Of a stretch of DNA of 64,000 nucleotides, positions 7,482 through 62,520 are shown in pieces; positions within the stretch are counted from its first letter, which is position 1; the number at the start of each line of letters is the position of its first letter. This stretch comes from Atriophallophorus winterbourni. Its lineage: Eukaryota > Platyhelminthes > Trematoda > Plagiorchiida > Microphallidae. The notes below the pieces were generated by a model. That model worked only from the letters and a program-made list of their open reading frames with translations, was not told the DNA's origin and did no database searches. Where the stretch lies: positions 1 to 64,000 of the forward strand of contig JACCGJ010001846.1 in assembly GCA_013407085.1 (NCBI GenBank). Reading direction: 5' to 3'. The translations under genes and the position numbers were made by a program.

Positions 7482-10398
7482 CTGAAAAAATTGTATTTGA
7501 TTTATTGTGATTAGTTACTTACTGAATTTCAGTAGTTGAGTTGACGGAAAATATAAAATATCTAGCGTATCGTCAAGACCGTCTAGAGCATAAGCCAATC
7601 TACATTTTCCACTTTTTGTTGAATATATAGTTACTAATGAAACAAATTTGTATACTGCTGCTACTAACAGATATTCACTGTTCAGAACGGAGCTTAGTAA
7701 TAATATTTAACCAAATGTCGTCTCGCTCTAAATCAGCGAGTTGATTGGACAAATTCCAAGATTTTCAAGTATTGTTGAACTTTTAAATCATAAGTAAGCT
7801 TAGAAATTGGTGTTCAATGAACCTAATCTTTCTGAGTCCATCTGATGATTGGAAGGCGCTAGGTAACTGGTTGTAGTGTGTAAGTCCGCGGAATGTGAGC
7901 AACACTACGCGTGAAGAAAAGGACTCGCTCAATTCGGCATAGTTTTAAATTGAGATGAATTAGCAAGTAATCTTGGCTGCAACGTACTATATTATATAGT
8001 TACGATGTACACATAACACAACATTCTTTTTTATGAAAATACGAATATACACAACTGAGTAACCCAGGCAAAACACGTGAACAACTCTGATGCTAAAACG
8101 CTAAATTTAATTCTAATGAACTCTATTTATAAGTGAGTCAAAATTTTCTTTTGGCGGTACTAAAATTTTAGGAAAATATCATGAATATTTATTGATTGGG
8201 GGGTTAGAAATATGCACAAATAAACGTTGATATATCTTTTAGATTCCATCAGTGCATCTTATGTGTCAGTGATATCGAACACAATAGCAACAGTCGAGTT
8301 GATTGTGTATCTTCAAGTAGAACATGTTTTGTCTCAGCTACATTTTTATCATTGATGCTTTTGTATATAAGACCGTTTTTTTTAAATCGAAATTTTATAT
8401 GTTGGAATTAAGAGGAAACGCTTATACACATGTTGAACTCGGTTACATATGTCAACCATATGGAGCGATAGGAAGGGTATCTTGAGGTACAATTTAACAG
8501 TCCTTCTGCACCCACTGATTTTGAGAATACGGAACACTACTCCATGGTCCGTTTCCCTTGAGGTTCTCACTCAATCAGAGATTTACAATTTACTCCAGAG
8601 CCTTAAGCGCCATCGGGCATCAGGTGCTGATGCTTTAGTGCTGTCATTGTTCAAAGATGGCGGTTTCGCTTTAGTTTGCGAAATTCAAGCGCTGTTCCCC
8701 AACATATGGGCTGAGGAACGAGTTCCGATCCCTTGGAGAGAAACAGTAATCGCTTCGGTTTACTAAAAGGGACGGTGCGATTCTTGTGAAAATCATCTGG
8801 GTATCAGTCTCATTTCAGTAGCTCATAAAATACTGGCTTCCATCCTGCTTCACCGATTGAGTACCAAACGGAAGAGCAAATCCGTGAGAAGCAAACTGGG
8901 TTTCGTGCCGGTCGAGGGTGCATAGATCAAATCTTCACACTCCGTCAGTTACTGGAGGAATGCCACGCATTTTTTAGACCAACTATCGTGGTATACCTTG
9001 AAATCCGAGTGGCATTCGATTCAATCGATCGCGAAAGTCTTTGGAACTGTCTTCTGAGACATGAAGTGCCCGAGAAGTATGTTTGGATCTTGAAAGCATT
9101 ATATTTCCAAGCCTCATGCAGGGTTAAGTGTATGGACAATTGTCGTCATCGTTTAATATCTCCAGTGGGGTGCTGCAGGGCTGCCCTATCTCGCCGTTAT
9201 TTCTTAACTTAGCGATCGACGATGTCCTAGGGGAAGCTTTAGTTGGTCTGGTAGGCGCAGGTGTTGAACTTCTGCCGGGTGAGAGAGCTACCGATCTATA
9301 GTATGCGGATGACATCGCACTTCTGGGAGATAACTATGATATAATGCAACAAGCCTAAGACCACCTGGCACTTGAAGCTTCGAGGTATAGAATGTGCTTT
9401 GCTGCTCCATTGCACCGATTGTGGGACTTAGCTTAGTCCCCACATGAAAGCTAAATTTCAATTTGCAAATGAGGATTTATCCTCGAATTCGCAAATGTGC
9501 TTTGCGCCTAAAAAGTGTAAAACACTTACCCAGGACTGGAGCGGCTCTCTTCCAAATGTAACCGTGTGAGATGTCAATCTTGAATTGGTCGACAGCTTTG
9601 TTTACCTTGGCAGTTGTATCTCTCTCTGTTGGTGGTTGTGTCGCGGACGAGATCTCACAACGTGTACGCAAAGCGGGTGTAGCGTTTGCTAACCTTCGTC
9701 ATTTTTGGCGAGGACGCGATGTTCCACTCCATACGAAAGACCGAGTGTACAACGCAGTGGTGCGTGCTACACTACTTTATGGCTGCGAAACCTGGTCTAT
9801 CCGAGCGGAAGATGTCCGTCGACATTCTGTTTTTGACACCCGTTGCCTGCTTAGGATTGCTCGCACTCAGTGGCAGCATCGCGTTACAAATATACATGTC
9901 TACGAGCGGGCGTTAGTACCATGAGGCTACTGATTAAGCGAAGTGCTTATGCTTGCTCATTTGCGATGGTCGGGACAGGTTTCAAGAAGGCTTTAACACC
10001 GTTTACCATACCGCGCATTATTTGTCGAGCCTGGTAGAAGCTGGAATAAACGATCGGGTGGCCAGTCCATGACTTGGCACGTTGAGATGAAGAAACTCGC
10101 CGTAGCCTTAGACTCAGTGGAGCGTATGGGGCCCAAAAGCTTCACCTAATAGTTGGCCGGAAACCTTACGAGATATGGCTGCAAACCGAAGTCAGTGGCG
10201 GTAGTGTATTTTATTATGTGTGTCATACTTTTTTATTCGGTATTATTTTATATAAAAACAAAAAACCAAAACAAGCTGCTTTTGCGCATTTGTTTTTGCA
10301 TATTCCGCTTGCCTGCTTTCCCTTTTTTCACGCGCTTGCATATCTGCTTTTCCAACTTCATATTGCTTGGCACTTTGTCGGCTCCAGACTTGTGCTTC

Positions 10399-12330: not shown

Positions 12331-12339
12331 CTGTGAGAA

Positions 12340-16310: not shown

Positions 16311-16780
16311 TTCCTCTACAACAACTTTTGTGCTCAGAACACCTAGTTGTTCTTCTTGCCATCATTGAGCGATCTCTTGAACCTTCGTCAATAAGAAGAC
16401 CATTTGAAAATTATAAAAACACGAGAGAAGATAAAATGCAAACAAATTTGCTGTGTTATTAGTAAAACGGTCGTTGAACGTTAATCTGATTTGATTGGTT
16501 GTACGACTAATCATAAAGTGAAATTAACACTATGATTATAGCCGTTTATTTGAACTGAAAAACATTTACCGACATCGTTGCATTGCAGTTTACTTCGTAG
16601 TTCTACACACGCATCCATGTTTTATAAATATTTCGTTCGTATTCGTTTTTATGAAGATCGATATGATCATGAAGTAATAAATAAGTAAGTAAATTGCCCC
16701 ATTTATACACGGATTCAATGCCAAATGCAATATACACTTTTGCATGCATTTCGATCGCGCACACACACAGACACCTCAAG

Positions 16781-16820
16781 ACCGGTTTCGTACTATTTGC
16801 ACTCTTCAGGTAGGGACTGG
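16781..16820 (-). ncRNA. Hammerhead ribozyme-like core, family A
   Basis: Reading the minus strand: CTGAAGA (16809-16803), then stem II GTGC, loop AAATA, GTAC (one G-T pair), then GAAAC (16789-16785) running into the palindrome ACCGGT and C. CTGANGA and GAAA are the invariant hammerhead core. Stem I is weak. A TG-rich block and ATGCATGC follow, as in the copy at 19.9 kb. Confidence 0.65.
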
Positions 16821-19095
16821 GATCAGCGTGCTCTGGAACAATGTGATCGTACATTGTTATGATTGGTTCATTACTTCACAGCATGTATGTTTATAGTTTC
16901 CTATAAGGTCAGTTGACACCGTTGAATTAGTACTTGATATCATGACAAAATATAATCTTTTGCTTCCCTTTTGTTTTTTGATATCCGTAGAATCATGAAA
17001 CTACTTACTACGCGTTCGATTCTGGTTCTTACTCACTGGTATTTCATATTATTCTGTAATTTGCGTCATTATTATTTAAAGATTTTTCTCCAATTTTCCT
17101 ATCCATTTTGAAAAGCGGTATGGAAAAATACTATTATCTGAAAGCATAAGCATGCGATATAATCACGTGTAACAAATCGCGTATAACCTGGATTTTTGAC
17201 TTCCCAGGAACTTGAAAATGTTTTTTCTTGTGAGTGGAAACCATCCACTTCATTCTCAACTGCTTAAACAGTGACACTGGCACGCTAAACGTTTATTCAT
17301 TTTTTATTCGATAACTGTCTAGTGCTGTTAGAGACCATGTGGTGAGTGAGCTTATTACTTTAAATTGCCACGTTCGTTGCAGTTACCAACATGACTCGGT
17401 AGCTCGGGATTTCATTCATACCGTATAATTGTGCCGCCCTCAAATGGTTCTTCGATGCTAATAAGCGATGCCAAGAAGCGATGCCCAATTCTGCCTCATA
17501 AAGATGGACCGAACTTTGGCCTCGTGCTTGTTTGCAATGCAACATCTAACACGTTGGCAGCGATTTCCGATTATGTAGTTTTTCGCTGCGGGCGGCATGT
17601 TCTGACTTTTATATCTTCAGTGTTAAAGCAGTCAGCGGAGTGGGAAGTTGTGTGCGGCTTCTCGGAGGTAAGTTCTATCAGTGTATCAGGTAAACTCTGT
17701 GACAATATTTGGTTCACTTCGCTCACGATGATCGCAGTCTTTATTACTGGCGGTGTGCACCAAATAGAGCCACGCCAACCGTGTAGGCGTGTACCAAATA
17801 TGTACACATCGCGTTTTTGCAAAGTTCGCCACGTACACATATGGCGCACATCGCGGCCAACGTGTTAAGAACAACAAGCGCAACCTGACTGACACGGATA
17901 CAAATAATTCGTGCGTACAGGAAACGAAACTTGCGTCAGCCTGTCCAGCTCTCAACTGGTCAACAACCAATCACGGGATCGGATTAATTAGCTGGCTTGT
18001 GATTGGTTAAGAAACACCCCCTCCCAACCAAACACCACACCACCGCAAACTCGATGCCTCCGCTACAGTCACACCCAAGTGAGCGCGCGTGGGTGTGAAT
18101 TAAAGGGGGGCTACGAGAGCGAATGAACTGGCAAGTCGCAAAGTGCGTTCGTGGTCGCAGTCGGAAGTGATCCAATGGGGCGGATATCTGTCACGCGAGA
18201 CGGCGCAATTACGAAATCCACGTTGGTGATCAATGCGAATGCCGATCCATGTAAGTCGATTGATGACTGCTGCTCTCCTACTTTATTTAACGTACGACCT
18301 GTAAATTTATTTATTTATTTAAAAAAGTTTTATACCAGCACGACACAGTAAACAAAATTACTATTGGGATTGAATTTGGCAACCTATTTTCGCATAGAAG
18401 ATGCCCTTAACTGCTTTCCTACGTTGTTGCAAATCACTTGCAAACACAGTACTTGAAGGATACATGTTATCACAAGGGAAATATTTGAGTATACGAATAT
18501 GTTCTAGCTTAGAAACCTCACCTCAAACTAGCCTATCTTTCATACTTACTCAAATGAGTAGAAGAAAATAGCCTTATTCCTATCCATGGATTTCCATCAA
18601 TCAAACTAGTTTCGCCAAGAATTAAGGGACAATGACAAGGAAGTCTTTTTTCGTCAGGATTCAATCCGTCAGGTGCATCTTAAAATGCAAGCATCCTTTG
18701 ATTTGCCAAACAGATAACGATAAGTTATGTAAAGTTGGCTTTGTGTGAAGGAGATTGATCTTGAGACAATAAGGATCTCGTACAATGGGTGTGTACCAGC
18801 GGATTAATGGATTCTGATCAAGCTGTCACATTCACAGAAACGTCGATCAAAAATCATATCGTTAATGCGTAGATGAGTCGAGGAAAAGATTGACTAATTT
18901 TATATCGAAAAATTCCCTGAATCATAAATATACACCTGAGGCAAGTAATGAAATAAACTGTGCATGCATGGCCTCCATAGATGGTGAAAGAAATATTTAT
19001 GCACACATGCGTACTCTTAACCAACTTATCTATGGAAGGAAATAAATTTTTGATGCAAAGAAATTTGACTGCAATCGGTTAGATCAGTTTTTGGG

Positions 19096-19104: not shown

Positions 19105-19874
19105 ACTAACCACTCTAAACGATTGCATACTAATTTCTTTCAAACATGACTTAACAATCGGCCTCAAACATATTCAGATCAATTACCTTATCCGTGAATA
19201 AACGCTGATAGTGCTTCATTCTCGTTTAAATTGTAGGCATTTATCAGACTGTGTCTGTTTTCCTAGAACACTATATCTTCTAATGCTACTGGCTTATGTA
19301 GCATGCATGATTTCAAAATCATGAATCGTTACACACAGCGGTACGTTTTACCCGTTACTTATTTCAATTATCATTATTCAATTGTTGTGATTTAGCAAAA
19401 TGCTTTTTCAATCATTATAAACCATGAATGACTTTGAATTATATCTATGATTCATGAACTCTAGGACAAATCCTTTTTTCAACTTGAAATTTAACTTCAT
19501 GTGATCACTAGACGAAGTCCCACAATCAGTGCAATTTTTGCACAGTCCAATAACAGCATGATGATTGATTTTGGTTTGAAGGCAAATAATGCTCATGTGT
19601 AGATTCTGACTTCAAACGAAAATTACCTCGATAGAGCAGAATCTGTGCCAAGGTATTTGGGATCATGGCACAAAACAGTCGTGTGCACGAGGAAAATGGA
19701 AGTAAATAGGGATTTTCGTGTAAACCCAGAGGTTTAACCATCTACTTGTGTGTGTACATGGGACAGAATAGGTTGGCCGTGTTAGCCTTATCTAACAGTA
19801 ACTTACAAGCTCAACTTCTTTACCATTCCTCCACTGTTTCAAGCGCATTCGGGTCCTGATCGTAGTGTCCCTAC

Positions 19875-19899
19875 CTGATGAGTGCAAACAGCATGAAAC
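19875..19899 (+). ncRNA. Hammerhead ribozyme-like core, family A
   Basis: CTGATGA (19875-19881), stem II GTGC/GCAT (one G-T pair) with loop AAACA, then GAAAC (19895-19899). The ACCGGT palindrome has decayed to ACTGCT, so activity is unlikely. Flanks (GTCCCTAC before, TG repeat after) match the other family-A copies. Confidence 0.6.
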
Positions 19900-21292
19900 T
19901 GCTCCTGCGATGTGTGTGTGTGTGTGTGATAGAAATACACGTAAAAACGGTTTTTTGCATATACTCACGCGTTTCCAATATGCAAGTGTCTGGGCACAAG
20001 TGATTGAACAGGTTCATTGTGCCAAACTTAAATCTACTTTTCAACACTTACCATTTTCATCACAGATTCAATGTGGTGCTCTCGCATCACTACATTAAAG
20101 GAAATATCATCACCTCTTCGATGAGGAAATGATTATACTAGACCCATAGGTGTTGTGTAATTCATTGTATTTATTTGTGCTTGCACTGAGCCCTGTTCAC
20201 TTTCGAATTTGGACGCGGTCTTTGCAGGTACAAATCATTCTGCAAGTCGTAATCATGCTTCTCTGTCGGTGACATTTGCGTACTCTATTGCATCGTGTGA
20301 CTACCAACCATCAGCCATACTTTCACCGGACGTTCCTCGATTATAACTGTGATACAAATTTAACTCCTGGATCGACTCTACCTCCTACTGATTCGCAGAG
20401 CGAGCTACATTCCAGTTGCAGTGGATCACAATTGTAAGCACTTGTTTGTTCTTTTTGTTTATTTATTGTTATTTGCTCGCAGCATTAACCACCACGGTGT
20501 TACGCGGCAGTGGTAACGAGTAATCGCAGCTCGATTCCGGTCGCCATCACGAAGCACCAGTCTGGAGACAGACAACGTGTCAAGCCTCATGACACACGAA
20601 ACACAGAAGGGGATTGTCAGTGCTATCGGATATTTAGGGCTAATATTCATAATAGCATATTTTTGATTATTATATTGTATTTCACAATCCCTAGACCGAA
20701 ACGGAGTCAACTAAACAGCAGCTAGCTTCTGACTTGAGCGGAAAAGACGATGGACCTAACAACTTAGCGAAATGTTTTTCGAAGCATTCCACCTCCCTCG
20801 TTTAGGGTTTGCATGGTGTGATCTTGCAATGGATACTCGATCTCAGATATGACTAAAAATGCGATGCCTTGTTGCTGGCATCTTCTTGGAATGTTTGTTT
20901 GATTTATAAGTTGTCAGGCGATGTTATGTTGCATAACAGTCGAACCGCAAAGAATCCGTCGTGTTGATATCCCTCTAATCGTTCACAATATTCGGTTATT
21001 TTTTCTTGTTTGTTATTTAAGATGTAGCACATGATCACTTGTGTTTTTGCACTGTTATTCAGACGCCGCAGTATTTAAAGTCCTTCACTTCTTATCTCGT
21101 TAAGATTTAATCGTATCATGGTTTGGGGCTGTTATTTGATACTGCTAATCGTTATGCTGTCCTTTCTAACATAGCGACCGTAGTTCATGACTAAACTGAT
21201 ATAATTTGACAACTGACGGGCATTATTTAAAATTCCAATGATTCTCTTTTAATCTACATACTCATTAATAAAAATCTTTCTTCAAACAAAAA

Positions 21293-22247: not shown

Positions 22248-25200
22248 CTGTGTGAATGAGACAATGTGGCATTAGTCCTGGCCTCTTGGGCGATGCTCAC
22301 CAACACAAAATACAATAATAACAATCTGGGATTGACCCGTTTTGGGAGTGTACGCATCCACTGCTCTTACACACCACTACCGGCTTCTGGCTGTCATCAT
22401 GCGGAGACAATACGATTAGGTTCAGTGAGAACTCAAAAACCGGACTTTTGCTCTGATTTGATCGGTTGACTTTGATCAAATGTGTGGATGGATCATTTTA
22501 AGTATGGCTGTGTCAATCTGATTAGCAGTGGCTTCCAAGTATAATTTTGTTAATAATCTGAGACTTTTTCCAGAAGAGTCCCACTAAAATTACCTCCACC
22601 GGTGCAATAAACGAAATCCTGCAGCCTGCAATCAAACAGACACACTTAACGGAATTTCAACCTCCACGAAAATTCGCATATTTCGTTTTCTACCATAAGA
22701 CTACGCGTGTCGCTTTGCGCTTATTACGACCACGTCATGAATAAGGACCGAACATGGCACCATCGATTCCCATTCCCACTTGATCTAAGGTTTCCTTCGA
22801 TCGGTTTGGCACTGTCTGCAAAAGCATACATAGTACTTTTACTTCAGACGCTTGATACCAATAGAATGAAGTTGGGATTGATTAAACAATGTCTCACCAA
22901 ACTAACAAGGGGCATATCAAAGAAAGACACCATCGTCATCATCAACAACATCAGGGATAGCACTGCACTGGTAGCAAGCACCGAATGCTCAAATTCCCCC
23001 GAAAAACATAACAAGATTGAACTATAATAGATAGAGAAAAGCGGGCCTGAAAGAACTATGCAATTTATAAAAGAGTAGGCAAAAGCAAAGACGTTTGCAA
23101 AAGAGATATGAAACCTCTTGGAATCGACCCCGCGGGTTGGGAAGAACTTGCTCTTAACCGTTCACATTGGAGGCATTGTGTAAAGCGTCTTCTGCAAGAT
23201 GGGGAGGAACAAATACAGCTCTTGGCTGCTGAACGCAGATCACGCCGCCGGCGTGCAACTGACGCCCTACAACCAATTTCTGACCATCGTTGCAAGCGCT
23301 GCGGGAGATATTGTTCCTCCAAAATCGGACTGTTTAGTCATTCCAAAAGCTGTAGAACATGAACGTTCATGCGATTGTGATGTACATTCATGGTCGACAT
23401 CGACCGAAGGAGGCCAGCAACAACAACAACAACTGTCAAAAGCAAGCTGGTATGAGGTTCCGATACCTTTATTTGAACACGCAAACTAGCACCATTCGTG
23501 AACGAGTAGAGTGATATCAGCAAGACAACTTCCATGAGGTTTTCACTGAAATGCAGCATAACAAAAATTTCAACTCACTTCACTTGACAACATACGAGGT
23601 TAGGCATACACTCCAAGATGCTTACTGAAAACTCTTTCGAGACATGGGCTCAACTCACTTTCAGTTTTGGATACAAATTTTTCAAGCCACCCGGTGGCAA
23701 TGTGGGACAGCCAGTGACAAAGCGAACAAAGGCCCGGCGTTCTGCGGCATCAAAGCTGACCATAGTCTCGATCAACATATTGAACACAGCCGAGTTCCTA
23801 TCGAAGCCAGAAACAGGTTCACAGTGGGTCCATATCTCCTGGGCAGTCCAAGTAGGGCAAGCATCGCCTGCGATCATCAATCTCAGTTCACTCGGAGTGA
23901 ACATCGCCAATGTATGCATGGGAATCAACCTTTCGAATCCAGCTGCAAATAATCGAAATGAATTTGATTAAAAATTGAACAACCTAAGTGATCTTGGAGA
24001 AATGGGCGATAAACTAAGAGTATGTATAGCCTTTGGGTTAATGCTGTCTATTCGTAAGGCAAATAATGGCTAGAAAATGAGAATTTTAGATTAAAATGGA
24101 AACTCTTGTAGCGATCGATCTAAAAAGTGGATCGTATCAAAGAAATAAAATCAACTGAAATGACCTGCAGATACGTTTCTAACTCTCTATTATTAAGGGA
24201 GATTGTAAAACAACAGATAGTAGCAGAGGCTGCTTTATTAATCTGATTCATTAGTTATCTCGCGTTTAACCTTGACTACCTCCTCCGGTTGAAGCCCACC
24301 ACGGGCATGCATCTAGAGTTTTATGCTTCCTTGTTGCACAGTCACAAACTAACATACCTCAAATTCAACATGAAAGGGGATCGCATCCAAAGAAACGTTA
24401 TTTGAGCAACCGAGTACTGACCTCGAAAAGCTTGCATCTGTTTGGCAATACCGGTGTTCAGGGCGAAATCAAGTGACCGTTTCACAAAGCTGTCGATGTT
24501 TGCCTCGGTGAGGCATTCGTCAACATCCACGGATTCAGCGTTACCGAGATTCTCGCCAATTTGTGGTAAGGGAAATTCAATATGCCCAAAGCGCTGAAAC
24601 AGTGAGTCGAAGCGTATGTTGAGAATTTATATTTCGGTTAATTGAAAATTTGATTCAAATGCTAACTTTTGAATCCTGGTTGTTTCTGACAAAAAACGGG
24701 TGGATTAACCTATTAACCTCATCAAGAAACAAGTGTGAAAGAGTAGCATGAAAGAAGCAATGCTTCAAAGACATTGTCGTGCAGCGAGTATTCAAAGCTT
24801 TAGGGATTTACGGTAATAGAGCGAACGCTTTGGAGTACCGCGAGATTACGTTAGGAATGAAAATAAACAAGTACGTGCATCTCAAACAAATTTTACAAAA
24901 ATGACGTTATTTTCCATTTATGACTTTACAAGTCATCATCCGTGGAGGTAGAGAATTTCAAAGTTAGCACGTACGGCAAGGAAGTGGCGGTGGGCAATCA
25001 ATGCGTGAACTTGACACAGAAAGAGGTAGCGTAAGCCCGAGTGTCACAACACACTTGACAAGTGTTGAAGCCATTATCATGTATAAATACATGCCTAAAT
25101 GCTAACTAATTCAGACTGACTGATGCCTACAAAAACTGAGAAAGACACGTAGCAAATTACGCACTGTGAAAAACCTAGGATATGTTAGGGTGAGATAACT

Positions 25201-31200: not shown

Positions 31201-34200
31201 TACGCATTCGTTGAAAGAGCGTGCACAAGGGATATGTTTGGGACCGATCGTGTATTCTTATTGGAAAGAAATTTGTGTGCAATCAGTTAGATCAGGTTTT
31301 GGGTACGCTTCACTTCTGATACAGAAGCTTCGTCAGACCAAGGGTGATAGACAGGATAGAGAACATGACTAAGTAGCAATTAACCCATCACCTCTGTTTC
31401 TACTTTACCGCAAAACAGTCTATAATCACGTCACTTAGGCATGATCGGGATGAGCGGTCGACTTGCCTACTACGGTGTGTTTGCACCGCAATCAACACAA
31501 GTGAACACGGGTCAAGGTTAGTTGACACTGTGGCCAACATGCGTAACTAATCGCGGGAAGGTTAAACGATTGTTGAATGGAAAGAAAAGAACTAGTTAAC
31601 TATTAGGTATTAGGTGAATAAGAAATATTTACGTTCGCATCAATATTGCGGAGAATTCTACCCTATCTACCTTATTGACTGCCAGTCGATCTGTCTTAGC
31701 AATTTCGAACGCCACACGGTCTAATAACGCATCTCAACACTTCCGCATTGTGTAGATCGTCGTTGTGACCTTTATCTATCACACTTGGTCTGACAAAGTT
31801 TGTGTCAGAAGCGAAACATTGCAAAATACTGGTCTAAACGATTAACGGTAATTCAATTACTTCAGCTGCCAAATGGCGATTGATTTCGTCTGAGGACAAT
31901 GAATAAACGGACTAGCAGACAACAAGACAATTGCAATAACAGAGAATGAGCACGTACAACGTTGCAAACAGGTGGCAACACGCATTCTCACTTAATAATA
32001 TTTCACAACTGGCGCACCGATTGTTTGAATGCGTGAAAGTGAAAAATGACAAATTAGGTGGCACGTTACAAGATTATTTGACGGACACGGAATGGAATTC
32101 CACTTAATGAATTTTAAAATCCTTGACAAAGAGAAACACACTATGCCGTCGTAATCTGTGGAAAAATTGGAAGCTTTGTGCTATATCCCTTTACATAACT
32201 TCAGTGACCACAACGGAGCCTCGGCATAAGCATGAGATAGAACTAATCACACAAATGGAACAGCCCCCCCCCAATTACCTTAATTCTGCAGACAGCAAGG
32301 TGTAGAACTCCATGGTTGGACCCAACCCTGTTCCTTCTTCGCCATTAAAACCAACTTCCAGTTCCTGTTGTTTATCAGCATGAGACAAAAGCAACCGGAC
32401 GGCGGTATCCCAAAAACTATCACCCCCGGTGAACGTGGAAGTGCACGAATGAAGTTGGAATGGGAAATTTTCGGTCGCTTCGCCAGACTCGGCCAACAAT
32501 TCGGCGGATTGCGGACGTGGCACCCGAGCAACGTGACGTTGGATTCGACCGAGATTGGACAAAGGGGGGCGATTGGCGTGTTCAAACCCGATAGCCAGGC
32601 TGTTGAAACTTGAAACGTGGCTTCGTTGAAGAGTTTCATTGATGAAATTTCGATGCCCTTCGGGAAAACGGATCGATTAACGATATGTTTTTCACATAAC
32701 ACAAGTACTATTGATTTTTACCAGAAAAAGTAGCTTGACCAGTGCGTGATGTATATTTTCCTTAAAACTTTCAATACAAATAACGATTGCAATATAACGC
32801 ACTATGAAATGAGCCCACGAATATACCTTTCATACACGTTGAAATTAATCTTGTGAAACGAAATAAGGTATCGATAAAGTGGGAAGACCTGACACGGAGG
32901 TCTGTTCGGCTGGGCGACCACAATAGATGTTGCTGGCTTCTTCTGGACTGGCCGGGCAAACAAAGCTACTCAAATGTGCCAGTCTGGAGAACAGTTCATA
33001 CACGCCTAATTGCGATCGGTCAAACGGTGGACTTTAACTCAAGTCGTTAAGGCGTGGTACTACAATGGTGATGGTCGGGGGTTCGAATCCCACCCGAAGC
33101 GGAGGATATGCACTACCGATGAGCTAAAATAAGAGCGAAACTCGAGTCTAGTGGTTCCATTATGGACCGTCGTGATCAACTTTGTGAATGGTTCGATGGG
33201 CTTGGTACGGATGAGTAGCGATAGATAAACAACACATTCTCCAAATATCGCTTAAAATGAGTTCCATTTTCGTTCACACCATCGGAACCCCTCGAAATCT
33301 TTGAAGCGTCAAGCAGCTTACGATAGGTAGTCAAACGAGAGGGTATTGTAACTGATAGATTTAAGATTATGGACAAAAGTATTTTGTTCTGGTTCATTTT
33401 GTGTTAAGAGTAACATAGGTTTGTTGATGATTGGATTGACCTAATGGAAAATCACAAACATGTGCAATTCGATGGGTGAGGATAGTTTTCTAAGTGCTCT
33501 TAAACGTAAAAGATCCCATCCAACAACATGGTTTGAGAACGCTAATTTCACAACAATCGTATAAATGCTACGGAAAAGACATTTAGTAGGGACATGCATA
33601 CAAAGAAAGTCACTACCCATATAATTTTAATCCTAAGGAAATTAATCGGATGCAAGCCCAGCTTCTTGGGCTTGCATCCGATTAAGTACGTGGTGGAATT
33701 GGTTTACAAGGCAAGGCGGGCCCACATTGGCACCCGAATCAAAGAAAACAAGTGGAGATGATAAGTAATCAAGTTTCGAAACAATGTTGATAGAACGACC
33801 GCATTATTACACAGGAAGAACTGGGAAACACATGTTGATCACATTCTCCGCACCCGTACACAAAAACCGGTTTCAACTCGTTTTCGTTAATGACGTGTCC
33901 CTCAATTCAGGAGGATTGATTGTTTACCGAAGTAAATTACAGAATTTTACCAAAAATTCGTATATGCATGCATTTCTATGAAGCTTCCCATGACTGGTTT
34001 TGTGCTGCATTAGGAAAGGAGAGTACGACCAGGATCCTCATGCACTTGAACAAGTGGAGAAATGGTAAACAAAGATTAAACTTGTAGGCTACTGCTGGCA
34101 CAACCCATCTGCATGTGTATCCACACACGCGATTGAACAGGTTGGTCGTGTCAGCCTTATCCAACAATGGCTTACGATTTCAATCGTTGCCTTCATAATT

Positions 34201-37200
34201 GTGTTTTACGAATGTTCAACTTTAGTGAATGAGCATAGGCGGAAATTTGATCGTCACTACTAATTCGTATCTCATTATGGAACCAGCAGGGAATATACCC
34301 AAAAGTTTAAACGAGTAACAAGTTTGGGCTTCATCAATAAAAACTTTTCTAAGAATAAGCGGAAAGCCATCCATGGTCGACACCGGCCGATGGAGGCCAA
34401 CAACAACAATCTGCAAGGGAAAATTTAAAACATTGTTTCAAGCGCATGCGGATCATGCTTGTACTGTCCCTACCTGATCCAGGACGAAACAGCATATGCG
34501 GTGTGTGATGGAAATATATGCGAATGAGCATTAAAGCACATGGAAGTTAGCGAATATCATTGCTAGCAGAAGATAACTCCAATCAAGCGGATAGCAAAAA
34601 AAATCAACAGGTACAATACCATTTTTAGTCGAAGTGATAACAGACGGCGTCCACGAAAATCGATGTCCAGGAAACATAGGTCTGAAACCGATTCGATCTT
34701 TGATTGAACTTAGAGTACGGTCGGAGGGGGAGACTGCCTCAGAGGAGCCCGCGACTAGCTTTTGTAGCCAGGTCACTGCCCTGAAACAACGAAAAAGAAC
34801 CGTTCAAGGCCAAGCTCGTCTTATCAAGGTATGGCGGATCAATATCTAGATCAGATCACGTTACCTGCAAATTGTATAAAAAACCAATCACCGTTTGTGT
34901 GCCAGATATGAGTTTAGAAATTTTTCACTTGAAAAGTTGAAACCATCACTGGATAACACTGACAGAGCCAACAATTGAGTTAAAGTTTCAACTTAGTCTA
35001 CCATTCTTCAAATTTTGTTAGGCACGTGGATAATGATCCAACTGGCCAAGCCTGATGAGTGGAGGCAGCAATAAAGAAAAGCAAAAATCGACCGCAGATA
35101 TGGGGCGAAAACCGGTGTTTTGAATAGTACATCGGTTTTCAAAAAATTATCTTACCGTTACTACCTTGGACATTTCACAACCGTGCAGTCTGAATAGAAT
35201 AATAGGGTTTATGAGCCATAAACAGGCTTCCTCCTAAATAGGTTAGGTCACTGGATGTACAATTCCTACTATTGGTGGTAAGATTCCTGCGTCTATAAAT
35301 GATTAAGCACGCTCTTAGATAAATTAATTTCTCATTGAATGGGTCAGACTTGCAATTAACCCCTCTGAACAGGACAAAGAATACTATCTGTTTTGGTTTG
35401 AAATATGCTTAACCAATGAGCTACCTCCGAGCGAGACTACTATGTTCGGATGCAATATGTTAATTTTTCACTACTAGTCAGAACAATGAAAAGCGAATTA
35501 AGCGACATTAGCGGTTGCTCAAATTGTATTTTCGTGACGATATCGAATGTCTCACTTGCTTCTTCCTAAACTGGATACGCGCCAACAGTTCAACCGAGTT
35601 TCGAAGGGAAACAGGAAGTTCATGCGAACTGGAAAATCAACCACCCAAGGTATTTCCGACGCACTTATCGAATCCCGACGAGAAGTAAAGTGCAGGTTGG
35701 ACAGAACCGACCAGGCGTCTTTCACATACAGTGACAGTTTTTTTGTTAAACGAGGAGAATAAAAGTGATCTCGAAATATTGAATCAAAAATTGGACCACA
35801 ATTGGTAGAACTATCGCAGGAGCATTCGCAATTGTCCTGATGGAATACGGAAGTGCGTGATTGCTCGCGAGTGAGGTATACATTCAGCAACTTGAGCAAT
35901 TCGAATATATTTTCGATGCAACCCGGGTATGTGAATACGTTTGACTTTTTCTCGAACTGGATTTCTGGAGTCTGTAAATGGATACATTGAAAGTTTAGGT
36001 GTAACAAGTAAGAAAATCCAAGTGCAATTACATAAAACCCAATAATAGAAAGCAGAAGCAAACGACGTTGAACTTTAGAACCACTGTTAAATGGAGTTCG
36101 TACAGCGAATACGCTGTTCGAATACAGAATCAAAAAGTGATTCTTTACCAAGCGCTCAAGACATTTGGAAACAACCAAAGTATAGTGTTGCGCACATCCC
36201 CCGCACTTACACATCAGAACCGGTTTCTGGTTGTTTACCACCATCAGGTGGAGAAAGAAAGTTTAGGTTCAATGAACCATGTAACAGTGGAGAAGTGGTA
36301 AACATAGTTATACGTAAATGCCACTGTTGAATAGAGTTCGTACAAATCATACAGAATCAGTGATTCTTGGCCAAGCGCTCGAGACGCTCAGAAAATGAAA
36401 AAACGTATAGCGTCGCTCAAATCGCGCGTGCATAACCAGAAACCGGTTGTTGTGTGTAAGCATAAAATTATACATTTGAAAGAAGAAGCCTTCAAATTTA
36501 AAACTGAACACAATTCCCGGATCACACAAGATAATTTCATTGTCACCAAAGCATAATCTAACGAAATTACCCAAGTTCATCATTAAGCGAAAACTTCCAA
36601 TTTTGAAGATTTTTCAAGAATTCTAACCGTACGGTAGAAGCAGTTTAAAGTTGCGTCGACGAAGTGCAATCAGTTTACCTGCTTCCACAGAGCTCTTAGA
36701 TCTCACCGTCTCAAACGCGGAGACCACTGAGTTTATATAGTATTTATTATACGAAGGAATAGAAACAGAATTATCCGAATCATTTGCTTGAAACGTTCAA
36801 AGCATTTAACGGACGACAAGTCTCTCATAGTTGGCACTAATTACGCGATTCAATGGAATGCCAACCGGAATTCAGACGGAGTTTCACCCGTTGATTGAAT
36901 GGATTGATCTGCTAACATCTAACCAAGAGTGTACAAAAATTAGCTCCTGGTGCATAGGAGAGTACCGAAATGACCGTATTCATTAACATGACACCTCAGG
37001 ATTTATTTCGAACTCATTATCACAGCTTCAAAGTGAGGCAAGTCAAAACGAATAGTCTTGCGTTTTATCCCCTTTAGGACAATAAATTGCCTACCTGTAG
37101 TGGTGTATCATGTTGTACAAATCCATCTGAGCAATAATCCAAACAAATGGTTCGATTCCACAGTTTGAGCAGTGTGGTTTTGGTCGGAGTGAGCACTCCG

Positions 37201-40200
37201 CTGCCGGGATATTCCTCTACCAAGTTCGCCTTTCGCTGGGAGTAGAACATGAAATACTAGATAAGCAGCTAAAATACAAAAGAGCGCGGGTTGCCAGCTT
37301 GAATTGAATGTTTCGACGCTAAGCAAAGGAATGTGGATAAGTAAAAAAGGAAGACATGTGTTAGAGTAAACTGGACACAAAACAAGTGTAGTACCGGGTT
37401 TGAACAATTAATTAATACAGATGAAACAGTTAACGCAAAAATCGAGACTAACTCAAACTTAAAAAATGCTTCTTGTATGTTCAAAATTTTGAGACACTTT
37501 CTATTATGTAAAAGAATTGTTTGAATCATAGTGTGCAGAAAAGTAAAGAACACAATCAAGCGTATTCCACATTTAACCTAAATCAAATGCTAAATGATGA
37601 CAAGTTTGGCTAGAAGTTGAGCAATGCTCATTCAGAGGGCTCCAAAACAGATTATAGCTTGAGTAAAAGAATGCTGTTTAATGAACCAAATAGAATAACG
37701 ATGAGTAACTAGTAGCACCAGTTTGAAGAGAATACAATTCATCACAGGCGATTGAAGCAACAGAGGAGTGATGATGTAAAAATAAGATAACCTCGAAAAC
37801 GGACCATGTTATTCGAAGTATAACAATGAAACTCACCATAATATAATGGAAAACAAACGCATCCGGACAATCTAAGCTTGCTGCATTGGTTCTATTCGTA
37901 TCATGCAAGGAGTTTGAGTGAGAATGCGTTGTATCGGTGCTGGATTCCGAATTATCTGAAGAGGACACGCTTAAATCGATGGAGGTTGACAAAGGTAGTG
38001 GTCCAACAATGGGATACCTCAGATCTTCCGCCAGCTCTTCGAACCGGAGATAAAGTTCCATCGTCTTGCTAATTTGCTCCGATGTCACAACAGATGTGGG
38101 ATGCACAGATACCGACGCGGGTATGGGAAATGCAACAGTATTGGGTAGATTGGAAACACCGGAACGAACATCGAATGGGGGAATTAGACCTTCGATGCGT
38201 GCATCAATATTTTCCAATTTGATACGACCTAACTGTTTTGCAGTACGAATGGATTGATTGGTCGGTTTCGTTGATCGTACCCTCTCATTTATAGCGGGTA
38301 AATTGGATGAACACAGTCCTGTTTTGCTCAATGGTCCAGCACTTTCCAGCTTGGAAACCGGATCATTGCGTTGCTTTTTAAGCAAGGAAAAGAGTGTTTC
38401 CGGATGACTGGAATCCGTATCTGTGTCGACTGTGATTTCGCTCTCCTGCAGGAACGACGCATCTGATGATTTTGAACCGTTCATATGTAATAGAATAGAG
38501 CTATCATTCGCAGACTGTGACTTGGATATATGTGCCGCGACTTCGTCAATCGTGACTACCGTGATATGCATGCTTTGATCAATTACCTGTAGCGAAGAGG
38601 AAGAAGCAAAATGAATCGCTGCATACAAAGCAGGGATCTAAGCGCGACTAAATAGGGAGCCGTGTTGATGACGCAGAGGAACATACACCACATCATCAAC
38701 ATACAGCTGTGTGTGTAAGTGGCCACAAGAAAATTGGAACAATTAGTTAAAAACAACGACTACCTTAGCCCAAATCCTATTCAGAAGTGTAATTGTGCAT
38801 CGTTGATTAATAAAAAACATGAGTCGTAAAAAATCACCCAAAGCTAAACAGTAAAGTTACATTGAATAAGTGGTATACAAAGTTATACCTGAATGCCACT
38901 GTTGCAATGGGTTCGTACAACGATGTTCAAACACAGAATCACATAATGATTCCTGGTCAAGCACTCACAGCGCTTAAGGATGTCCACAGTGATGTGTTGC
39001 TCACATCTCCCGAACTTACGCTAACTGTACCTAATCTTACTGTCTCCACCTGATGACGACAAACAATCAGAAACCGGTAGTGGAGTGTAAGTTCGGGGAT
39101 GTGAGCATCACATCATTTTGGTCATCCATGAGCGAATTGAGTACTTGACCATGAATCACTATGTGATTCTGTGTTTGAACATCGTGGTACGTTGTATGAA
39201 CCCTATGCAACCGTGGCATGCGAGTATAACTTTGTTTATCACTTATCTACTGTTTCAAGGCTAACTGAATCTAATCTTACTGTCTCCACCTGATGACGGC
39301 AAACAACCAGAAACTGGTAGTGAGTGTAAGCTCACCGTATGTCAAAAGCGTCTCCGAAGGAATAAGTCGTATCTTGAATAACACAAGGGATCAGAGTAAC
39401 ATATAAGAGGCAGAACGCCCCGCTACGCATTAATGCATCTCAAATATAAAACTCATTTAGGTTGTGCGACCAACTGCATCTACAAAATTAAATGCAAGGG
39501 TTGCGCGGTTGTTTACATTGGACAAACATCTAGAGAACTTTGCCCTAGGGTAAAGGAACATAGTAAACGAGTAAGAAAGCAACCCCGCAATCCCAGTGAA
39601 TATCAATCATTGATTCGGGATTCTGCCCAAGCTGAACACGTGCTAGACACTGGTCACAGCGTGGATCTTGATAACGTGGAAGTGATAAGACGGGGGGTAA
39701 AATCTTATAGGGAAAGACTTCACGCTGAGGTAGTTGAAATAACAAAGGCTAGGGTGAATGCGGTGAACAAGGTGGATGGGGCGGATATCTCAACAGTCTG
39801 GCGTTCGGTTCTGCAGCGGGTAAGGATTAACGTGCATAACACCTAATGTGCACATGGATTACGTAAGCAGTGGGTCAGTGGATGCTGTTCGCATCTGCAC
39901 ACAAAATAAACAATTTAGGGAATAACACAGCATTTAGGGAGGGTGATCAACTGTCTTGATCTCGCCTGTCTAGCTTAGAGAACTCAGGATTGGTCAAGAA
40001 AATGCCATTGAAACCTGAACACTGTTCGTACCGACACCCTTGGTCTGACGAAGCTTCTGTGCACAGAAGCGAAACGTTATAAAAAACCCTGCTCAAATCG
40101 ATTCACTGCAAACTTTCTTTTCATGATTATGGACTCCCGATCGGTCTCGGATATTTTTAAATACCTTGCTAAAACATGGGCTGTAAAATGATCACCCAAA

Positions 40201-43200
40201 GCTGAACAGTAAAGATACATTGGATAAGTGGTAAACAAAGTGATACTTGAATGCCACAGTAACATAGGTTTCCTTCAACGAACCACGAAGTTCAAACACA
40301 GAATCACATAGTGATTTTTGGCCAAGCACTCAAGGCGCTCACGGATGACCAAAGTGATGTGTTGCTCATATCCCCCGAAATTACACTCCACTACCGGGTT
40401 CTGACTGTTTGCCGTCATCGGGTGGAAACAGTAAGATTAGGTTCAGTGAACCTTGAAACAGTGGATAAGTGGTAAACAAGGTTATACTTGAATGCCACGG
40501 TTGCATAGGGTTCTAACAACGAACAACGATGTTCAAACATAGAATCACTTAGTGATTACTGGTCAAGCACTTAAGGCGCTTATGGATGACTAAAGTAATG
40601 TGTTGCTCACATCCCCCGAACTGAAACTAATCTTACTGCCTCCACCTGATAACGGCATACAACCAGAAACCGGCAGTGGAGTGTAATTTCGGGGTGTGTG
40701 AGCAACACATCACTTTAGTAAAGATACATGTTTAAATACCACGAAAAATGAGTGAAGCACTTGATCGACGACATCAGGCTTAAGCGATTATCTAAATACA
40801 CATTACTACCAGATTGTTTACGGTAGTTATGAATAAGCAGCTTGTGTAGATGTATGTTGGAAATCACAAGCCTGATTCCGACACGTGAGTTAATATAATG
40901 TCGGGTTGTCAAGGTATAGAATGAAAATAGAAATGACAGTGAGAGTCCAGGGTGTTTCCAGATGCAGCTCACTGCCGGTGCCGAATCAATTTCGCACGGT
41001 CTTAGCTGCACGATTACACACACCGTACAAGAACGGTAACGAGAGCGGAACTTATCTTGTCGATCGATTACAGACAAGCATTCGTGTAAACATTTGTTAC
41101 CACGAATGCTAGGAAAAACCATTCAAAAGGGATCTGATATCAGGGCGTTAATAAAATTAAGAACTTGACAAAATGAACTGTTTGTTGGTCGAATTCTGGA
41201 TAAAACAAGTACACGCTGGTAATACAAGCAATGGAAATCCTCTAATCTGTCTTTCTTTTGTGGCTTCTCTCAATACGTGCTTGATATTCTCTTCAACGGG
41301 GGTTGTAACTTTAATAACAACCGCTTCGTGGAGCCTTATCTGAATTCCACTCTAAACAATGGAATCGAATGTGAACTGATTTGCTATAGATGAATGTAAA
41401 ATGATGAATTTAATTTAAGCATGGATTAGAAATAAACCGGAACCAGGTAAAGACAAAGATCAATAGTTAAACGACGACCATTCAAGCTTATTCAAAGCCA
41501 GGTGTATGAATGCCAACGATTCGAATGTCGTTAATCGAAGCCCCGCTTCAATGGAAATCGAATGGGGATGGAGAAATAAGAATTTGATTTAAAGTAATGC
41601 GTTGCTCGCATTCCCCGCACTTACACACCACTACCGGTTTCTGGCTGTTTGCCGTCATCAGGTGGATACATTTGATTTACTCTTATGTCTTTGCAGACTG
41701 CTACACAAGATAGTCATCACTGATATAGTGCCGTTCACACAGACAATTTAGAAACACTTACTGTTTGACCGCTGATTGGATCCTTGCGTTCCCATGCATC
41801 AAATCTCGGAAGCTTAGGAAGCGAGGGCTTTTTCGGAACATCGCGAAGCCATACACTTGAGTCTGACGGTACTTCCGTTCGATTTGCTAAGACATTCAGA
41901 TCTAGCGCTCGTCCAACAATTTCCAATTCAGGATCCTTGTCAAGCGGAGGGTCAGTTGGATCCAGTTCAGCTTCTTCGGGTTCGCGCTCCTCTTCATCCA
42001 ATTCCGTATCGATCAATTGTTCAACACGATTTAGCGATTGACTAAATTTGTCTTGGTCAGCTATTGTAGCAGAGGCTGGCCGTCTAACTTCAGATGTTTC
42101 ATCACACTTTTCAACAGCTCCCGATATGGACACACAAGACGCAGCAGTGATCTCAGTATCATTCGGTTGCACATTCGCGAGTGGCGTCTGATAAAGTTGC
42201 ACGACAACAAGCGAATATCATTATGGCGGAATGTTTTAACGCATAGAACAAGGAAAAATTGCTTTACTTCGTTAATATATTTTAAACCGTCGCGATAATG
42301 AATTAGAAACCGCACACAGGATACCATGAGATTGGTGGCAAACAATGGAATTTTCCAGTAAAACACCTGGTATAGAATCACGGAAGTGCAGAGATAACCC
42401 AGTGCTTACAGTGTAACATTTACACCACTTGACTGAAGAACGTGTTACCGAGTCATGAAAGCGTCGGGTAGCCTAACGCATTAGGTTTGCAAAGGATTAG
42501 AGAGGAACAAATAGGGTAAACACGGCAACCTGAAGACGTAAGACCTAGGTAGAAGTTTCTTACCACTAGCAATCGACATGATATGACGTACGACAACTGC
42601 GTGTCGTGCGGCCGCATTATTTTGGGCTCCCGATTAGAGGATATATTGTTCTTACAATTACACCTACGTGGATAAATTATACTTTATTGGAATACTCTCG
42701 AAGTTCAACGAACACCAAATGGCCAGGACCAGACAGGATCAAGGAGTATTATTATGCTCGATGTTCCCGATGACAAAACGGTTTATGAAAGAAAAGAGTA
42801 CGATCATAGACAGTGGCCATTCATTGCTGATGTCATCGGTTCCCGAAATTCTGTGGTCGTCGAAACGCAGAGAATATCTTGTTCACTGAACTATCAAGGA
42901 AAAGGCTCAAAGGAAAATCCACTCAAGATTACATTTTCGTCAAGAAGCGTGGCGGATAATATCTGCTCTTAACTGACACTCTATAGGAACAGATTACCTG
43001 AAAACGTTAGAGTGTGCAATCCAAAAGCCAATGCGGAGGGAAAATTAGCATCTTTCCATAGCCAAATGATCCGCGGCTGACACAAAGTCGCCAGCAAAAA
43101 TACCGCAAATTGTTTCGAAAACGACTAGGGTACGATGTCGACAGCGTCAGACCAATAAACACGGTTACTGACTCATTGATACATGCAAAACACTCACTCA

Positions 43201-46200
43201 AATGTCTTTAAACGAATGCCAACGTTTGTTTAATAAATTGGCCGAACTAACTGAGTTGTACAAACCATACTCATCCGACCTCCTCGCTGTTACTGAAACC
43301 TGGTTTCAATCTTGTATGACTGAAATCGAACTGTCGATCCCCAACATAATACTATCACGCAAAGATCGCCACGATGAGATGGTGGTGTTGCTCTATACTG
43401 TCACAGGAAGCCTTCAGTCAAACATATATAAACATTCATGATTTATTAATGGACGACTGGGAAGCGACTTCCGTTTTACGCTTCGTAGTTGCACGAAAAA
43501 ATGAATAGGACAACGCAAGAGGACGAAGGAGCTAGCATTCACGCTGTCTATCTAGATATGACTCAAACTTTTATTGAGTTGATGACTTTCTTCTACACAA
43601 AAGCTGCATCACATGGGTAACAGCAGACAGCTACGTTTATGGCTTAAAAGTCACCTCACTGAACGCAAGAAAATTGTGCGAATGAACGACCTACCAGAGA
43701 CGCTCTCATGCATTTGATTCTATTTGATGATGATATTAAAATTTGGACGCGGATGAAATCTACTGCTGACTGTGTACAGCTGCAAAGAGATTCGGATTCT
43801 CTCCACAAATGTTCGGTAAGTTATAACTGCCATTCAATTCTCCAAAATACAAGGTGCTGCAAATTGGTAAGCCATTCCGGTACGAATGTCACATTGGGCA
43901 TGCGATTTTGAGCTGGACCGACTCGGAAAAGGATCTTGGAGTCTGGGTATGCCGCAGCATAAAGAACAGCATGCATTGTGAGGTCATTTGCAACGGTGCT
44001 TCCAAGCTTCTAGGTATGCTGCGACGGATTTGCAAACCTTCTCACCTGGAAGGTTGCCCACAATCATGATAAACTACTTCATTTCAACTATGGAGCATGG
44101 ACTCTATGATTTAAGAGCGATATACATCTGCTTGACATAATATATCATCACGCAACAAACTCTTAAGTGGTGTCCGGAACCTAACGTACAAGGAACGATT
44201 GCAAAAACGGAGACTCCCCACCTCTTTCAAATAAATCGTCGGAGTGATGCGATACTTATATACAAAGTACTGTATACCCCACATCATCATTTCAAAATTT
44301 TATTCGAATACCGTAAGTCACAACATACACGCAGCCACTCGGCGACAGTACAAATTCCACATTCCGGTATTAGCTGTCGACGATATTTTTATTCTGTTCG
44401 TACGAAAGTAATGTTACCGTACCCAGCGTTAAAACATTCATTCAAAATTTGGACACGTATTTGTTGCATAACGATTGGACGATATCTGCGTATTGACTCA
44501 CGGTAAGTATTCAACTGGAATACACGTGACATGACATGATTACTTGTTATTTCTTTTTCATGAACGAATATTTACTATGCTATGGTAATTGTGAAGCGAT
44601 GTACTTTTTGTGACCATAAATTATTGAATTTTAATTTATGCTGACGGTTGGTACCTGCCGGTGTAACCCATCCCATAACCGCGGAGTTTCGAGTAGGCTT
44701 CTTCGATTGAACTAGTGCTGAGGTCAATGTGTTTGTCTGCTAAAAAGGGCACAAGAGTTCCACCAGTATGTTGAAACATCGCAAACAGTGTGAGTGAATG
44801 ATCACTCACTATCAGGAAGAAGACTACGAGACACGCATTTCAGACAGCGGGACAACGAGATATCAGAAAGAGACGACGTGGCACCTACCATTTTTCGAGT
44901 CACAACCATCCCTAGAGAAAGTCAAGACTCGGCTTTACGTATGTAGATTATAAAGCTTGAGTTCGCATTATCGATTGAATCACGTGTATTATATCACTTA
45001 GTGACTTGAATAAAACATATATGAAAAAGACTTACTCGATTTAGTCCGGTGCTCGGTTCAAGGGAACAAGCCGCCTGGTTAGACAGTGGCGATTGGTTAT
45101 TCTGAGCTAGAATGCGAGAAAAGTTAGTTCAAAATACCCGCCCTTGCACGGCTTTCAATTGCACACAACTAATGACCATTTTCGTACTGTTTGCACTCAT
45201 TATGTAAGGACAATACTATCAGGACCTTGTGAACCGGAACAGCGGAGAAATAGCCGACAAAAGGTTTCTACCTTTTGTTTAAAGCCACCATTGGGTTAGG
45301 CCTAGAACGCTATATATGCATATGTATACTAAATATGAGAAGTGAATAAACAAAGTTAGACTTTTAAGTCACGTTCCGTACAACGAACCAAGATGTTCAA
45401 ACAAAGAATCAAAAAGTGATTCTTGGTTGAGCACTCAAGATGCTTATGGATCATCCAAGTAAGGTGTTGCTCATGTTTCGGTGGTATGTAAGTGCGGAGG
45501 ATGTGAGCAACACATTACTTTGTGAAATAAACAAGTTTTACGTTTTGATATAAAGATTTATAGAATCTGTATCGTATACTCCTATAAGTATGTGGATTGT
45601 TCTTATTTAACAATTTATATTATATTTACTCATCATCCAGCGATTTAAATTTTAGTTAATTTTCCAATGTAGTTTGGCAGCTAATCAATTGTTTTTAGAT
45701 CTTAGCCCATTACCTCCCGGCGATCGTATATGAGATCACTTACAAATAACAGATTTTTTAATTATCTGTCTGTATATAAGCATATATAACCTTCACGCTA
45801 TATCTATTAGGTATATTTCTCTGATATGCACATGAGATTAAAAAAATTCGCTTTAAATTAATTGATATACAAGCTTGAATATATCGAAATTGTACTCATG
45901 AGAACTGTTATGGGAGGTAATGGGTTAAGAAGCAACGTGGTGGACTGGGATAAAAATAAAAAAAGTTTAATTACGATGAAATGATATGTACAGAAGATTG
46001 GGTTGGTTGCGGGTTGTACTGAAAAAAACTATCAGTCACTTACGAGAAGACATTCTTGGAATTAGCATCGGCTCCCGTATCATCATGGGGCTACATGATG
46101 CGAAGAAGATGGGAATTCTCCTAATGAATGTGGGAAACATGGTTGCATTCAACGAATTCTGGCTCAACGGTAGCAAATACGAGGGAAGTGGGTTGAAAAG

Positions 46201-58939: not shown

Positions 58940-59100
58940 AAGAACCCTTTTCTATAGTGGCATAGAAGTATAACATTGTTTACCACATTACCACTGTTTA
59001 AAGGCTCACAGAACCTGATCTTACAGTCTCCACCCAATGACGGCAAACAGCCAGAAACCGGTAGTGGTGTGTAAGTGCGGGGGATGTGAGCACCTCAATA
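58940..59100 (+). repeat. Family-B hammerhead repeat
   Basis: It reads GTATAACATTGTTTACCACA, CCACTGTTTAAAGGCTCACA and CTGATCTTAC, then the core at 59028-59067: CTCCAC, CCAATGA (expected CTGATGA), loop AAACA between GGC and GCC, GAAAC, ACCGGT, A, GTGG. One unit with a mutated core. Confidence 0.7.
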
Positions 59101-60484: not shown

Positions 60485-60590
60485 TATTGTGCTGCTCACA
60501 TCCCCATCACTTACACACCACTACCGGTTTCTGGCTGTTTGCCGTCATCAGGTGGAGACAGTAAGATCAGGTTCAGTGAGCCTTGAACCT
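60485..60590 (-). repeat. Family-B hammerhead repeat
   Basis: Minus orientation, one partial unit from GGCTCACTGAACCTGATC through the core to GATGTGAGCAG. It ends within about 90 bp of the putative exon at 60682. Confidence 0.75.
60518..60557 (-). ncRNA. Hammerhead ribozyme, family B
   Basis: Minus strand: TCCAC, CTGATGA (60551-60545), stem II GGC/GCC with loop AAACA, GAAA, ACCGGT palindrome, A, GTGG. All core positions are intact. Stem I is 4 bp. Confidence 0.72.
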
Positions 60591-62218: not shown

Positions 62219-62520
62219 TAGGTTGTTATAAGATCAAAGTTTACCATGATGAGGGCACTACAAATTCATATTCAACGAAAACGTATTTCAGATCTTAATG
62301 TCATCACTTAATCTAACTTTCAGATAATTTCTAACTGCCAAACACAACTCCAGAGAAAAATATATTTCAAACTGATAGGTATGCTAAAACTTGGTATTAC
62401 GTGAAAAAAGTTTGAGACAAATGAGATGTAAAAAAAGATAAATAAGCTATAAAGTTTAACATTTATACTTATTCGTCGTCAGATAAAACGTTTGATGGTC
62501 GAAAAAAGAACATCACTCAC

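Follow-up and report, generated by a model that had tools for sequence, protein, structure and literature searches.

The DNA analyzed here, a stretch of 64,000 nucleotides from an Atriophallophorus winterbourni contig (referred to as the window), contains a dispersed repeat, family B, in which the motifs CTGATGA and GAAA are flanked by complementary segments. This raises the question of whether the repeat contains a hammerhead ribozyme and, if so, in what kind of element it resides. We consider it very probable, on the basis of sequence analysis, that family B represents a small hammerhead ribozyme of type I, located in the pseudo-LTRs of a Penelope-like element (PLE), for which cleavage is predicted. 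An earlier note had proposed a hammerhead within a dispersed repeat, and the order of the parts, their pairing, the covariation seen in comparison with a sister family, and the Penelope-like nature of the host agree with this reading.

Hammerhead 1 (39036..39091, + strand) was defined by a strict descriptor, by its pairing, and by a score of 90.9 bits with a local model that itself contains hammerhead 1. It is composed, in this order, of CUUAC, UGU, CUCCAC, CUGAUGA, CGAC-AAACA-AUCA, GAAA, CCGGU, A, GUGGAG, U, and GUAAG. These segments correspond to (i) stem I, in which 39044-39049 (CUCCAC) pairs with 39080-39085 (GUGGAG), (ii) the core, at 39050-39056 (CUGAUGA) and 39070-39073 (GAAA), (iii) stem II, in which 39057-39060 pairs with 39066-39069 to enclose the AAACA loop, and (iv) a predicted cleavage site after A39079, within the triplet GUA. 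The bases listed in the earlier note for 39044-39085 (CTCCAC/CTGATGA/CGAC AAACA ATCA/GAAA/CCGG TA/GTGGAG) were found exactly as given. Two parts are additions to that description, namely, an outer stem I, formed by 39036-39040 (CUUAC) with 39087-39091 (GUAAG), and the UGU/U internal loop that separates it from stem I. Stem III is minimal and has no stable loop. Its sequence, A15.1-C-C-G-G-U16.1, is the palindrome ACCGGU, which is present in the family B consensus, and because this palindrome is loop-less a monomer is unable to form a normal stem III. The self-duplex of ACCGGU, with six pairs between two copies, has a computed energy of -8.3 kcal/mol.

To define the family B repertoire, we built a profile from six copies and ran it over the window. 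Ten copies were retrieved with E values below 1e-11, together with three weaker matches (E 1.9e-6 to 1.1e-4); the match following these thirteen had an E value of 0.18, and the best match in ten shuffled windows had one of 1.2. The previous count of eight copies thus has to be raised to ten, since 22400- and 7842+ are additional. The family B consensus is in full agreement with the hammerhead core, CUGANGA and GAAA, located between stem I and stem II. When the alignment was read by eye, the strict core (C3, U4, G5, A6, G8, A9, G12, A13, and A14) was intact in four of the ten copies. These include, apart from hammerhead 1 (39050+), the copies 41661- (41612..41672), which is without outer stem I, and 60551- (60502..60567), for both of which retention of the invariant core had been correctly noted before. 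The fourth is hammerhead 2 (39290+; 39276..39330), in which one base of stem I is deleted and which does not satisfy the strict descriptor. Core changes were observed in 40421- (40372..40437; U4C and A15.1C), 40646+ (40630..40695; G8A), 36247- (36198..36263; A9G), and 59034+ (59018..59083; U4C and G5A). The remaining copies, 22400- (22358..22416), which was retrieved with the profile and the local model, and 7842+ (7826..7892), are decayed. The family B copies in the window look like old insertions.

The strict descriptor demands CTGANGA, GAAA after a gap of 8 to 16 nt, four contiguous stem I pairs, and a T followed by a non-G starting 4 to 12 nt after the start of GAAA. It identified three sites in the 64 kb (39050+, 60551-, and 41661-), as compared to a mean of 0.07 sites in 400 dinucleotide shuffles, none of which reached three (the largest number was 2). 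The motif CTGATGA alone was not enriched in the window, with 15 occurrences versus 10.2 expected, and 10 of 100 shuffles reached 15. Two motif patterns had no match in a viral sequence collection. A search of a genome collection returned a single match, namely, 25 bases of the ribozyme core in a Psychrosphaera gene (L001 1961-1989) that we take to be GGDEF-like, the domain having been named by eye. This coding match was judged a coincidence. It scored 15.4 bits with the relaxed Rfam hammerhead search and 22.6 bits (E 0.0028) with the local model, and it illustrates that a hammerhead consensus can be matched by chance, an alternative explanation of family B. However, the bacterial match covers only positions 17 to 46 of the 66 in the local model and is without stem I, whereas all ten family B copies, which form part of that model, score at least 56 bits. 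Together with the shuffles of the strict descriptor, the covariation counts reported below make a chance origin of family B extremely improbable. In hammerhead scans, the Psychrosphaera match can usefully serve as a negative control. Four further fragments (63961-64000-, 57850+, 34461+, and 36402+) had weak local-model scores (E 0.0098 to 0.78); given the E value of the chance bacterial match, the evidence for them is a sequence profile rather than the local model.

At the gathering cutoff, the Rfam hammerhead families RF00163, RF00008, and RF02275 had no match in the 64 kb, and a relaxed search (E up to 10) of 36000-42000, which includes six copies, returned three matches, none of them a hammerhead. 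When short stretches were searched, 39050+ scored 17.2 bits, a match obtained only in a search restricted to 91 nt, and 60551- scored 13.1 bits. Since the chance coding match scores alike, we set these values aside. The check by covariance model that the earlier note had suggested is hence neutral to negative for family B: nothing at the gathering cutoff, and short-stretch scores no better than that of the chance coding match. The Rfam evidence is better for a copy of the sister family described below, 16804-, which matched Hammerhead_1 with 22.3 bits (E 0.0013; 96-nt search; below gathering); another sister copy, 19875+, gave a weak match in the relaxed search (15.1 bits, E 0.58). Because family B scores below the Rfam thresholds, annotation that relies on those thresholds would miss it. 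Free folding did not favor the active fold either, with z-scores of -1.06, -1.84, +1.19, and +0.65 for four copies. The hammerhead fold without stem III was above the energy minimum in all six copies tried, which include 40646+ and 59034+, with their core changes, and 39290+, in which the deletion spoils the register.

The window contains at least three copies of a sister family that is set apart from family B by compensatory stem changes, namely, 19875+ (19859..19924), with the cleavage triplet CUC, and 16804- (16760..16823) and 45200- (45164..45219), both with GUC, the latter copy being decayed. They keep the layout of family B, with a CCCUAC-like 5' strand of stem I, and stem I mismatches are present. 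In stem II, GUGC stands with GCAU in 19875+ and with GUAC in 16804- and 45200-. The second pair of stem I is C-G in all three sister copies; in family B, it is U-A in three of ten copies and mismatched in six. Similarly, the second pair of stem II is U-A in all three sister copies and G-C in eight of the ten family B copies. Over the 13 copies of the two families, standard pairs were present in 79.1% of 201 cells, as compared to 75.1 ± 1.2% after shuffling. Slid registers yielded 31 to 43% standard pairs, a control that is biased in favor of the structure since the latter was derived from the same sequences. In 11 cells both sides had changed, versus 4.2 ± 1.7 in shuffles, a number reached by none of 500, and the covariation score of 0.176 was reached by 1 of 500. 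Two weaker measures were the number of pairs in which both sides had changed (6 versus 3.6 shuffled; reached by 44 of 500 shuffles) and the number of further pair types (15; reached by 197 of 500).

This covariation between families is better evidence for selection than conservation among copies, on which the argument for selection on the RNA had originally been based. Our conservation count comprised 13 rows, 10 of which span the core; the three sister copies were left out, and five of 21 rows were dropped (40648-40458, 39062-38859, 36457-36284, 33897-33833, and 31025-30915). Agreement with the consensus across the ten copies was 83 of 90 cells (92%) at the nine strict core positions, 112 of 126 in stem Ia, and 60 of 80 in stem II. 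For the downstream repeat, it was 816 of 999 cells, or 822 of 1,010 with a slightly different choice of columns (81 to 82%), and the comparison of the core with all other columns resulted in a P value of 0.049. The core is thus more conserved than the downstream repeat, but its conservation is equaled by that of the outer stem (94 of 100 cells; 94%) and of the upstream flank (83 of 89; 93%), so that the weight placed on conservation of the copies is not fully justified. Because transposon copies record the sequence of their source, conservation among them is weak evidence for selection, and the copies in the window, taken alone, support selection on the RNA only weakly. One might also attribute the conservation to a protein, if the ATG within CUGAUGA were the start of a PLE open reading frame (ORF), and from this ATG the frame indeed has no stop up to the end of the 229-nt consensus. 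We regard a coding origin as very improbable. Past the cleavage site, substitutions at codon positions 1, 2, and 3 amounted to 0.122, 0.200, and 0.162 (13 rows), i.e., there is no excess at the third position, and the covariation of the stems would be left unexplained. A start codon within a ribozyme would, in any case, not rule out the ribozyme.

The most unusual feature of family B is the first pair of stem II, which had been described as C-A in all copies. It is C-A in seven of ten copies (seven of the eight counted initially); 36247- and 7842+ have U-A, and 22400- is without that part. The canonical pair at this position, G10.1-C11.1, is absent from the family B copies, and in the sister family G-C was observed in two copies (16804- and 45200-) and G-U in one (19875+). 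There is no CpG depletion in the window (observed/expected, 1.02), so CpG decay is no obvious cause of the U at this pair. According to Perreault et al. (PMC3088659), the first pair of stem II is the most conserved one of the hammerhead consensus, aside from 15.1-16.1, and a natural U-U mismatch has been reported at this position. A C-A mismatch need therefore not kill the ribozyme, and we infer that it may lower activity without necessarily abolishing it. Another interpretation is that family B is a former hammerhead that persists as a relic of the repeat, with C-A marking an inactive subfamily and the motif being retained through a recent common source. This would fit the about equal conservation of core, outer stem, and upstream flank, as well as the distribution of C-A (seven of ten copies), given that the first pair can form in two divergent family B copies and in the three sister copies. 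In turn, a relic is at odds with the compensatory differences between the families, and the natural U-U mismatch (PMC3088659) suggests that a mismatch at this position need not be lethal. We therefore consider a relic a rather unlikely explanation, though the most serious competitor of an active ribozyme. A more elaborate version of the ribozyme reading, in which we have little confidence, is that a PLE subfamily has fixed the C-A pair, possibly in a protonated form, and that the outer stem I and the internal loop compensate for it by touching the AAACA loop; the outcome would be a hammerhead that acts as a dimer, may depend on protein or pH, and cuts at a selected stage of the retroelement cycle. 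A single 64-kb window thus offers natural C-A, U-A, G-U, and G-C variants of the most conserved stem II pair, and their presence in otherwise similar ribozymes makes a direct comparison of activities possible.

The putative host element lies at about 38814-40719. It comprises (i) an inverted pseudo-LTR segment S (38814..39022, - strand) that is head to head with a direct copy, (ii) a pseudo-LTR segment S' (39095..39256, + strand) between the tandem hammerheads 1 and 2, (iii) the degenerate, 5'-truncated GIY-YIG endonuclease end of a PLE ORF (39400..39846, + strand), indicated by Pfam and by a protein match, (iv) a segment S after this ORF (40171..40387, - strand), which is 81% identical to 38814-39022, and (v) a second, tandem segment S (40455..40628, - strand), identified by repeat comparison. 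The S segments at 38814-39022 and 40171-40387 are inverted relative to parts of 39095-39253. The endonuclease remnant scored 15.8 bits with PF01541, below the cutoff of 22.6, and is 41% identical to the metagenomic protein P0001 over 94% of the length (E 5e-28). A search with both sequences aligned retrieved one more distant relative (E 1.9e-8), and no relative of the remnant was found among solved structures at an E value of 1. Upstream of the remnant, in other frames, there are linker-like residues that presumably correspond to the PLE region between reverse transcriptase and endonuclease. The reverse transcriptase domain of the PLE was not found among the Pfam-scanned ORFs (10 of the 20 listed, of at least 130 aa). 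Three of the four hammerhead copies at this locus are in sense with the ORF remnant and one, 40421-, is antisense. From these sequence features, the repeats look like the pseudo-LTRs of a 5'-truncated, decayed PLE. The layout at 38814-40719 is much like that of rotifer Penelope elements, for which PMC3846280 describes 5' truncation, partial tandems, and pLTRs on both sides of an ORF, with an inverted pLTR adjacent to them.

Segment S is complementary to S', and 38820-39256 could fold back into a long hairpin that carries the hammerhead at its tip, in competition with outer stem I. A relaxed Rfam match to MIR868 at 38955-39151 (27.2 bits; cutoff, 200) reflects, in our reading, this S/S' inverted repeat.

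The tandem arrangement suggests how the missing stem III might be supplied. The copies 39050+ and 39290+ lie on the same strand at a spacing of 240 nt and could pair their ACCGGU palindromes on one transcript. In the mechanism that we propose, two tandem copies would thereby share a 6-bp stem III and form a double hammerhead, each hammerhead of the pair would cut after GUA, and multimeric element RNA would in this way be trimmed, in the course of the retroelement cycle, to units whose ends are defined. The tandem unit length of about 240 nt also fits retrozymes, since those of animals are described in PMC7229834 as units of about 170 to 400 nt that contain type I hammerheads and are often arranged in tandem. 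The repeat might hence be a non-autonomous, retrozyme-like or SINE-like element of about 240-nt tandem units that uses the PLE machinery and moves as circular RNA. We consider this quite improbable, since one locus has a PLE endonuclease remnant that is flanked on either side by the repeat, together with inverted segments of the kind found in PLEs (for the copies elsewhere in the window, the check for a linked ORF covered the list of ORFs of at least 130 aa). Furthermore, invertebrate retrozymes are characterized, according to PMC7761336, by a helix III that is stable and by cleavage as monomers, whereas stem III of family B is loop-less; amphibian retrozymes without a clear helix III are mentioned in the same review.

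The window contains several other features. A third hammerhead-like motif is located at 33110-33154 (+ strand), downstream of a tRNA-like box, GGTTCGAATCCC; it matched Hammerhead_1 with 23.0 bits (E 0.0011; 151-nt search), below the gathering cutoff of 34, and has U4 changed to C. Motif and box together look like what we assume to be an SMalpha-type SINE, a family distinct from family B. A reverse transcriptase fragment at 29789-30355 (- strand; RVT_1, 25.6 bits; cutoff, 29.6) is probably derived from a LINE, and an ORF at 61748-62233 (- strand; DUF6451, 28.8 bits, just above the cutoff of 28) looks LINE-like. A possible exon of the host, weakly similar to TPR, was observed at 11898-12497 (- strand; TPR_12, 18.8 bits; cutoff, 30.1).

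Small PLE hammerheads have reportedly been described by Cervera and De la Pena in 2014 and by Lunse, Weinberg and Breaker in 2017. Family B resembles them in its type I order, the almost complete lack of stem III, the tandem arrangement, the probable location in PLE pseudo-LTRs, and the predicted dimeric cleavage; two reviews (PMC6155905 and PMC7761336) likewise describe minimal type I hammerheads that occur in tandem in PLE pseudo-LTRs, may cut as dimers, and lack typical tertiary contacts, and the latter review refers to their role as unknown. As judged from these descriptions, family B differs in the C-A pair (7 of 10 copies), in the outer stem I with its UGU/U loop, and in the GUA site. 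The hammerhead of an Anolis PLE (Poseidon, PAc) cut in vitro only with the PLE protein, according to PMC11167929; host and sequence differ from those of family B, and the element in the window is truncated and decayed. The SMalpha and W-element hammerheads of Schistosoma mansoni share with family B the type I order and the occurrence in dispersed repeats; three of five tested W-element candidates, which have an extremely short stem III, cut in vitro. In PMC8490949, they are described in SINE-like and W-elements and not in PLEs, whereas family B is probably PLE linked. The newt satellite 2 hammerhead, as summarized in PMC6155905, is cleaved as a dimer via an elongated helix III, as proposed here for family B, but is located in satellite DNA and not in a PLE. 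Judged by its sequence and layout, family B thus appears to fit an already published kind of PLE hammerhead, of which the C-A pair and the outer stem I are modest variations, and since such small hammerheads have been published for PLEs, it is much less novel than initially suggested.
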